64,000 nucleotides of DNA, from the NCBI GenBank assembly GCA_026397475.1, contig JAPLUT010000006.1, positions 124,001 through 188,000 of the forward strand. The letters are read 5' to 3'. The notes beneath the pieces are model-generated. The model made no database searches. It was not told the origin of the DNA and saw only the letters and a program-made list of their open reading frames with translations. Of the stretch, positions 8,049 through 35,714 are shown in pieces. Origin of the DNA: a candidate division SR1 bacterium (GTDB taxonomy: Bacteria; Patescibacteriota; Gracilibacteria; Absconditabacterales; Absconditicoccaceae). The position numbers and the translations under genes were made by a program. The stretch's first letter is position 1, and each line of letters starts with the position of its first letter.

Positions 8049-8170
8049 TTTTGTCTCCCTTTGCAAAGGGAGATGCCAAAGGCAGAGGGATTTGTAAACT
8101 AATTTGTTTTTAAAAATCCTCCATCCGCAAAATGCGGATACCTCCTCCTTTGAAATAAAGGAGGACAAAA
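8049..8170. repeat. MITE-like palindromic repeat with TTTTGTC/GACAAAA ends
   Basis: A 122-base intergenic element bounded by TTTTGTC and its exact inverse GACAAAA. Inside are nested hairpins: TCCCTTTGCAAAGGGAGA, a GCCAAAGGC-type arm, ATCCGCAAAATGCGGAT, and CTCCTTTGAAATAAAGGAG. The base composition and C-runs/G-runs resemble the ends of the DUF559 element at 34.8-35.3 kb. It probably is a non-coding relative or remnant of such elements; relatedness is inference. Confidence 0.6.
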
Positions 8171-17871: not shown

Positions 17872-17967
17872 CCCCACCCTAACCCTCCCCACTACGTGGA
17901 GAGGGAACTACGCCCCTCTCTAAGAATTGGAGAGCCCACATTCGTGGATAAAGGGAAAGGGGTGAGG
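17872..17967. repeat. CCCCACCC...GGGTGAGG terminal-inverted-repeat element
   Basis: A 96-base non-coding element: C-rich start CCCCACCCTAACCCTCCCC, internal GAGAGGG and CCCCTCTC arms, and G-rich end AAAGGGAAAGGGGTGAGG. The ends mirror those of the DUF559-carrying element at 34811-35287 (CCTCACCCCCTTTCCCC). It looks like a non-autonomous, MITE-like version sitting just after the PriA-like stop codon. Confidence 0.6.
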
Positions 17968-34070: not shown

Positions 34071-35714
34071 TTATTTCAGATATCAATTCAAGAATTCTTT
34101 CCATTCCATTGCTTTTTTTCCTTCGGGTTTGAGTTGGATATTAAGTACGGCAGGATGTAATTCTTTCCCATTAAACAAAGGAAGCTCATCATTACTATTA
34201 TATGTCGATTCATTTAGTTCTAGGCGTTCTATGATGACTCTTTTGTCATTTAATATAAAATATATTTTCGGCCAAAGAAAGAATGCACGGTATTTGTTAT
34301 AGATTGTTTCGAGAGTATCCGTCCGTGGATTTATTAGTCCAGATTCCTTTTCTATTTTTCCGCAATATGTTGCTTTATCTTCTTTCTGTTTTACTTCTCC
34401 AAGAAGTTTCTTTCCATATTTTCGTAAGGTGTCATTCAAAAATTTTGGACCGATTTCCGTCATCTCTTCAATCAATTCTTTTGTTGTCCACTGAAAGGGG
34501 ATTCTAAATCTCAAAATATCAATCATATCTCCTGTATCCATAGTTGCATCCATTTTCATTATCGTGAGTCCAGTTTCTTTATCATTATTAAGTACTGTAG
34601 ATTGAATAGGTGAGGCACCACGATACTTTGGAAGAAGTGATCCATGGATGTTGATAGGAGCGATCTTTGGGATATCTAAAATCGCTTGAGGGATGATTTT
34701 TCCATAAGCAATAACAACTAAGAAGTCTGGGTTTTTTTCTTTGAGTCGTTCTGCGAATTCTTTTCCTTCTTCTGATTTCTCCGGATGTAATTTGGTCGGA
34801 GTAAAAATTTCCTCACCCCCTTTCCCCCTCTCCTTCAGAGAGGGGTGATTTTCTCCATTATTTTTTATATGTGCTATCTCGGTAAGTATTTTTTCTAAAT
34901 TATCAAAAACATCTTCATTTTTACATCTTAATACTTTGTAACCTAAATGTTCTAGTGTTTGGTTTCTTTCCTTATCAATTATTTTCTGTTCTTCAGTGTC
35001 GTGTATGCCTCAATCTATTTCTAAAATTATTTTATACTCCTCATTATAAAAATCTGCTATATATTTATTGATAGGAAATTGTCTTCTTCGTTTCATTCAT
35101 AGAACTTTTCTATTTCTTAGAATATCTCGTATGATATCTTCTGCTATTGTTGGGTTTTTTCTCATATCTCTTGCAAACTGTACTTGAAGTCCTCATGATT
35201 CTCAGTAAATGTGATGTTTTTTGTATATTTCGTGTACTATCTTTTGCAACTCTCCTTCTCTGAAGGAGAAGGAGTTGGAGGATGAGGAAAATATTTTTTT
35301 TGCTTCTTTTTTTATGATATTTTCATTCATTTCCATCCCTCTTCCTGATGGCTTGTCACACTGAGTTACCACTCCAACTACTTCAAATCTTTTATCTTTT
35401 GTTAGGCCTTCAAGAAAGGGTACGCCGATAGGCGCTGAAGAGAAAAAAACTATACGATAATGTTCAGGGTCATATGTTTTATGCATACTTGCTGTACAAT
35501 GTAAAATTCTATCACTAGCATAAAAAATTCCAGGCCAAAATCCATATCTTTTGAGTACGGAAATGCTGTATTTGCTGCAATGAGGTTCATGAGAACATAT
35601 TCTTCCTTTTAGCCAAAAAGATGGCAATCCCTTGTCTGGTGAAAGCGTATATTGATATATTCTTATCATTCGTATTACAGGAATGGAGAGTATTTTGTTG
35701 AGTTTATTGAACAT
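34071..35714 (-). CDS. fmt: YidD-Fmt fusion (methionyl-tRNA formyltransferase) with inserted DUF559 endonuclease domain
   Basis: 547 residues in one open frame. Residues 1-82 match YidD, which aids membrane protein insertion (IRIYQYTLSPDKGLP, CSHEPHCSKYSISVLKRYG, ILHC). From residue 86 an Fmt enzyme begins (YRIVFFSSAPIGVPFLEGL, VGVVTQCDKPSGRGM) that formylates initiator Met-tRNA using 10-formyl-THF. At residues 143-302 it is split by a DUF559 domain (ARDMRKNPTIAED, RRRQFPINKYIADF, ILEIDGGIH, LGYKVLRCKNEDVF). Fmt resumes with VVIAYGKIIPQ, NIHGSLLPKYRGASPIQ and DATMDTGDM. The insertion lies in the loop before 'P.kL', away from these motifs, so activity could survive. A normal Fmt is about 310 residues. 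Confidence 0.88.
34811..35287 (-). mobile_element. DUF559-coding element with inverted-repeat ends, inserted in frame in fmt
   Basis: 477 bases (159 codons, so frame is kept). Plus-strand ends: CCTCACCCCCTTTCCCCC at the left and GGAGTTGGAGGATGAGG at the right, forming imperfect terminal inverted repeats; inner hairpins CTCTCCTTCAGAGAG and CTCCTTCTCTGAAGGAG flank the coding part. On the minus strand it encodes a DUF559 (PD-(D/E)XK, Vsr-like) endonuclease domain: core Glu-x-Asp in ILEIDGG and a following His. The repeat parts are translated as SSSSNSFSFREGEL and HPSLKERGKGGEE. No clear target duplication is seen beyond AT-rich flanks (AAAATTT / AAAATAT). Confidence 0.75.

Follow-up and report, generated by a model that had tools for sequence, protein, structure and literature searches.

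A small mobile DNA element, consisting of one DUF559 nuclease gene between two hairpin ends, sits unspliced and in frame inside the fmt gene of a candidate division SR1 bacterium that reads TGA as glycine (code 25), and its kin sit inside other housekeeping genes of related bacteria. The window analysed was a stretch of 64,000 nt (GCA_026397475.1, contig JAPLUT010000006.1, positions 124,001 to 188,000), in which an earlier note had proposed that a 477-nt DUF559-coding segment with inverted-repeat ends was a selfish element surviving inside fmt by staying in frame. The observation is confirmed and that interpretation is supported, although it remains an inference that the endonuclease drives the spread and that the interrupted Fmt works. 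The note's description of fmt as essential is probably too strong, though it would be apt for leuS and tsaC, which are hit elsewhere. No such report was found in the literature, in a search that covered open-access PMC only. The features of the locus, and of two miniature copies in the window, are as follows.

34083..35714, minus strand: YidD-Fmt open frame (code 25) containing the insertion; the Fmt part is taken from M at 35486 (468 aa, the only fmt found in the genome)
34808..35290, minus strand: the element with terminal TTTCCTCA/TGAGGAAA (core 34811-35287, 477 nt, 159 codons)
34869..35183, minus strand: DUF559 nuclease domain
34808..34850, plus strand: end 1, a CCCCTCTC/GAGAGGGG hairpin and GGGGTGAG mirror tail (3' end of the element in the fmt sense)
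35250..35290, plus strand: end 2, a CTCCTTCTC/GAGAAGGAG hairpin and GAGGATGAG mirror tail (5' end of the element in the fmt sense)
35288..35486, minus strand: N-terminal part of Fmt, upstream of the insert
34083..34810, minus strand: C-terminal part of Fmt, with the catalytic N/H/D residues (N279, H281 and D317 of the 468-aa protein)
8049..8170, no strand assigned: type A miniature copy without a nuclease, with the same ends as two intergenic DUF559 elements of this genome at 36.3 kb of contig C2 and 202.2 kb of contig C1
17868..17974, no strand assigned: type C miniature copy (GTACCCCACCC...GGGTGAGGTAAC); a DUF559 element with such ends is in leuS of a congener (G001)

The boundaries read TTT|CCTCACCCCC at 34808/34811 and GATGAGG|AAA ending at 35287/35290, with TTTCCTCACC at 34808 and GGATGAGGAAA ending at 35290. 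Under code 25 the frame is open through YidD-Fmt[DUF559]-Fmt, but under table 11 it is broken and four of its five TGAs lie in the insert; the element is therefore written in this lineage's own code and would be truncated in a standard-code host. YidD and Fmt form one continuous frame here and in most congeners read (a YidD-Fmt fusion or read-through). A Pfam search placed DUF559 (PF04480; E 5e-27) inside Formyl_trans_N/C, and with the insert the protein still passes the NCBI TIGR00460 fmt cut-off (207.5 vs 201.5 bits), whilst N279, H281 and D317 are invariant in the Fmt alignment. The ends form a 76% complementary 42-nt inverted repeat and each is a hairpin followed by a G-rich mirror tail, with 7/8 and 8/9 mirror matches (0/300 shuffles for the right end; DNA folding z -2.8 and -3.1). 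The earlier note suggested that two non-coding relatives of the element may lie at 8049-8170 and 17872-17967, and these are real, but they belong to sister families, type A and type C, rather than to type B, the type found in fmt. Single end-like matches of type A and type C, without a recognised partner, also occur at window positions 1744 and 10178.

Evidence that the element is mobile comes from several sources. Fmt of congeners G002 and G004-G008 runs through without a nuclease at this loop, which lies between the ENIIKxxAKK helix and the TPTKL strand and is a hotspot. G001 carries an RBBP9-like serine hydrolase domain (PF06821) in frame there, with no hairpin ends evident at the left junction read, G005 carries a solo type A end translated as SLIKEEVSADADGGF, and in G007 a short hairpin insertion translated as PAPFGATG lies a few codons downstream of the loop. 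The fmt element is 82% identical in DNA over 405 nt to an element lying in frame in lepA of congener G003; identity starts at the terminal TTTCCTCA, the far end matches too and the flanks are unrelated genes, and lepA is empty there in the genome under study (G000; 3-nt gap) and in G001 and G005 (0 nt). The two intergenic DUF559 elements of this genome are 94.4% identical over exactly 520 nt in unrelated flanks, with ends TTGTCTCCC...GGAGGACAAA. Nuclease-less miniature copies with the same ends occur for both end types: 7 near-complete type A copies plus about 15 partial ones, and at least four paired type B copies, at C3:117.9 kb, C7:84.8 kb, C2:43.2 kb and C2:38.4 kb. Type C has no DUF559 partner in this genome. 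Miniature copies or solo ends also lie in frame here: a comF-like gene (C3, about 23.6 kb) holds a whole miniature copy and a reverse transcriptase gene (C7, about 30 kb) holds two translated type A ends (SKGGVPRSGGGF and CKGGEPRSGGGF). No target-site duplication was recognised by eye at fmt, lepA and the miniature copies, where A/T-rich edges blur it.

Related DUF559 elements recur in other genomes, many of which are unnamed draft assemblies. Among relatives DUF559 is patchy (36 of 59 genomes), and reading every fetched DUF559 in context gave internal in-frame insertions in lepA (G003, on two contigs that may be two strains in one bin), leuS (G001, G041), mnmA (G037, G022, G024, G010), prmC (G022), elp3 (G030, and G011 towards the C-terminus), tsaC (G233) and ribE (G343, G040), plus terminal fusions to miaA, dxr, aroD and murD. 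Most interrupted hosts still exceed the NCBI family cut-offs, but prmC passes only the broader hemK-family one. The LeuRS genes carry further in-frame extra domains, NUDIX in G001 and a nucleotidyltransferase-like and an RBBP9-like hydrolase domain in G041. Nearly all junctions examined carry GC-rich palindromes. In the code-25 set, which was taken without selection, 12 of 46 loci have DUF559 embedded in a longer frame, one of which (locus L193) has no hairpin ends and no second recognised domain; the longer-frame standard-code loci were picked for their length, so their share is not a frequency. With only 102 columns the deep forks of the DUF559 tree are weak, but the fmt element of G000 and the lepA element of G003 form one clade (100/96), and the mnmA and prmC elements of G022 are nearest relatives (98/73), next to the elp3 element of G011 (100/93), indicating that host genes are switched. 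Genic and intergenic copies sort on the code-25 tree with 3 changes against at least 8 in 200 shuffles, so an in-gene lineage may exist.

The nuclease itself is intact and under constraint. Eleven residues are invariant over 28 diverse members, the fmt copy included (among them E14, Q34, D43, E54, D56 and H60), and dN/dS is 0.135 between the two intergenic copies and 0.13-0.15 between the fmt and lepA copies, showing purifying selection on the nuclease. The AF2 model (pLDDT 87) has a predicted EDxHD/Vsr-like fold that matches 3HRL, the homing endonuclease I-Bth0305I (3R3P; Foldseek E 1.4e-4, TM 0.7) and Vsr, and the link to I-Bth0305I is also seen by sequence (profile E 2e-4). A paper on Thermosynechococcus already places a DUF559 gene in the EDxHD homing family (PMC9403480). 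In the AF2 model of the chimera the Fmt parts exceed pLDDT 90 on both sides of the insert, but the insert is poor because its alignment held one sequence. A search for defence systems gave only weak partial PADLOC hits.

Similar ends flank DUF559 genes well beyond this lineage. The diverse 28-row alignment was too variable for a collection scan and a closer set was used, yielding 80 named DUF559 loci from many phyla; these were best matches and therefore a sample with bias. Of 79 scored, 72 had flanking REP-like inverted repeats above the 95% level of same-locus controls, although one of them (L222) scores only through masked Ns. With a separate measure, hairpins (stem 9 or more) flank both sides in 42 of 94 loci compared to 8 of 351 controls, but in the sampled code-25 loci strong hairpins (stem 8 or more) were found on both sides in only 17 of 46. 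Typical ends are CCCTCTCCC-n-GGGAGAGGG-nnn-GGGTGAGGG, which is the bacterial intrastrand triplex motif (TM/TMECO, BoxC-like) of Holder et al. 2015 (PMC4666352), with a C-arm, loop, G-arm, short loop and mirror G-tail GGGTGAGG. Both fmt ends have the same anatomy, including the A-to-T mismatch that gives TGAG. The motifs were described there as orphan intergenic repeats, not linked to a nuclease gene or to coding sequence, and the authors wrote that around these sites in E. coli they never found remnants of transposases or integrases. In E. coli K-12 one copy lies between the DUF559 gene ycjD, just downstream of it, and fabI, although ycjD has such a motif only on one side. In 381 genomes of the phylum the exact motif was found in 52, of which 48 have DUF559, compared to 56 of 329 motif-free genomes (104 of 381 overall; Fisher p about 5e-27, not corrected for phylogeny). 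This strict pattern gave 0 hits to the A/T-richer ends of the genome under study and so undercounts. In 23 genomes reached from named DUF559 loci, 19 have 1 - 71 exact motif copies and the reversed control none.

The explanation favoured here, with fairly high confidence, is that the segment is one copy of a small transposable element, a single EDxHD/PD-(D/E)XK nuclease gene between two hairpin ends of the REP/intrastrand-triplex type, and that copies which land in a surface loop of a conserved protein and preserve the frame survive by being translated through, giving one chimeric, unspliced protein whose own domains still fold around the nuclease. Comparison shows that an element with these ends moves, leaves miniature copies and is tolerated in frame. 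It is inferred, since no cleavage or transposition was observed, that the nuclease recognises its own hairpin or triplex ends, possibly as single strands during replication, and cuts the ends or the target so that repair copies the element; that the interrupted Fmt is active and the benefit selfish are also inferences. In-frame survival would be selection after random entry into tolerant loops. Not every DUF559 need be an element gene, as the Caulobacter DUF559 protein VsrA, shown to cause a DNA-damage response in cells lacking a cytosine methylase, has been proposed to be a mismatch-repair enzyme (PMC12907096).

A chance palindrome can be rejected, as the repeats recur and the ends pair with full copies. 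It is possible, but unlikely, that the repeats are moved by another agent, either a REP transposase of the Y1/RAYT type or host repair and recombination, with DUF559 a frequent passenger or merely stabilised between two repeats. REP repeats are known to be tied to Y1 transposases (PMC8266576, PMC3116915), miniature copies outnumber nuclease genes and 4 of the 52 motif-bearing genomes have no DUF559 hit. However, the only Y1_Tnp gene of this genome over the family cut-off (IS200/RAYT-like, C2:76949) is flanked by different repeats and not by type A, B or C ends, whilst DUF559 genes carry the motif ends across many phyla, presence of the motif tracks that of DUF559 and the nuclease is under purifying selection. 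A useful domain fusion, in which DUF559 was recruited for a host function such as RNA or DNA binding, is considered improbable. About two thirds of the distinct host genes act in tRNA modification or translation (fmt, leuS, mnmA, elp3, tsaC, prmC, miaA, lepA), which may reflect survivorship or target bias, and genic copies cluster on the code-25 tree, but hairpin ends are kept at nearly all junctions, the insertions are scattered and absent from congeners, the same element sits in unrelated genes and nuclease-less ends also land in frame. The RBBP9-like domain at the same Fmt loop in G001 points to a tolerant loop rather than a specific need.

A site-specific homing element of the intein or intron kind is disfavoured still more strongly. 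The nuclease is related to the mobile-intron endonuclease I-Bth0305I and mnmA is hit at the same loop in four genera, but the mnmA elements do not form one clade, there are many different target genes and related copies occupy fmt, lepA and intergenic sites. No group I/II intron was found in Rfam at E<=1 (one unrelated weak hit) and the segment is an open frame throughout; Pfam showed no intein domain, and the junctions IFSSSS / GGEEIFT carry no recognisable intein block. An assembly chimera in a metagenome bin is a remote possibility, given that the locus lies inside a 292-kb contig and similar in-frame insertions recur in about a dozen independent genomes with catalytic residues and frame kept.

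Among known systems, REP/REPIN repeats and their Y1 (RAYT, TnpA-REP) enzymes share short palindromes in inverted pairs, many non-autonomous copies and one dedicated endonuclease gene flanked by the same palindromes, but here the enzyme is a DUF559 nuclease and not an HUH/Y1 enzyme, the ends are hairpin plus mirror tail, and copies live in frame inside conserved genes. I-Bth0305I has a homologous catalytic domain and selfish-nuclease logic, but belongs to a self-splicing group I intron. Rickettsia palindromic elements (RPE) appear likewise to be palindromic DNA inserted in frame in protein genes and translated; they are short and carry no gene, whereas full copies here carry a nuclease, and the miniature copies look like the RPE-type state.

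A wider reading, about as likely as not, is that there is a bacteria-wide class of transposable element run by a single EDxHD (DUF559) nuclease acting on triplex-forming hairpin ends, that it is the unrecognised mobiliser of the widespread intrastrand-triplex/BoxC-like repeats, and that in TGA=Gly bacteria one of its lineages has specialised in living, translated and unspliced, inside conserved genes. The finding proposes a mobiliser for a very common orphan repeat class of bacterial genomes, with E. coli having both ycjD and 23 reported motif copies, and a role for DUF559, which is annotated as unknown or "Vsr-like". It also warns that annotated DUF559-host "fusions" may be insertions, and proposes a third way for a selfish nuclease to live inside a housekeeping gene, besides introns and inteins, namely being translated in frame without splicing.
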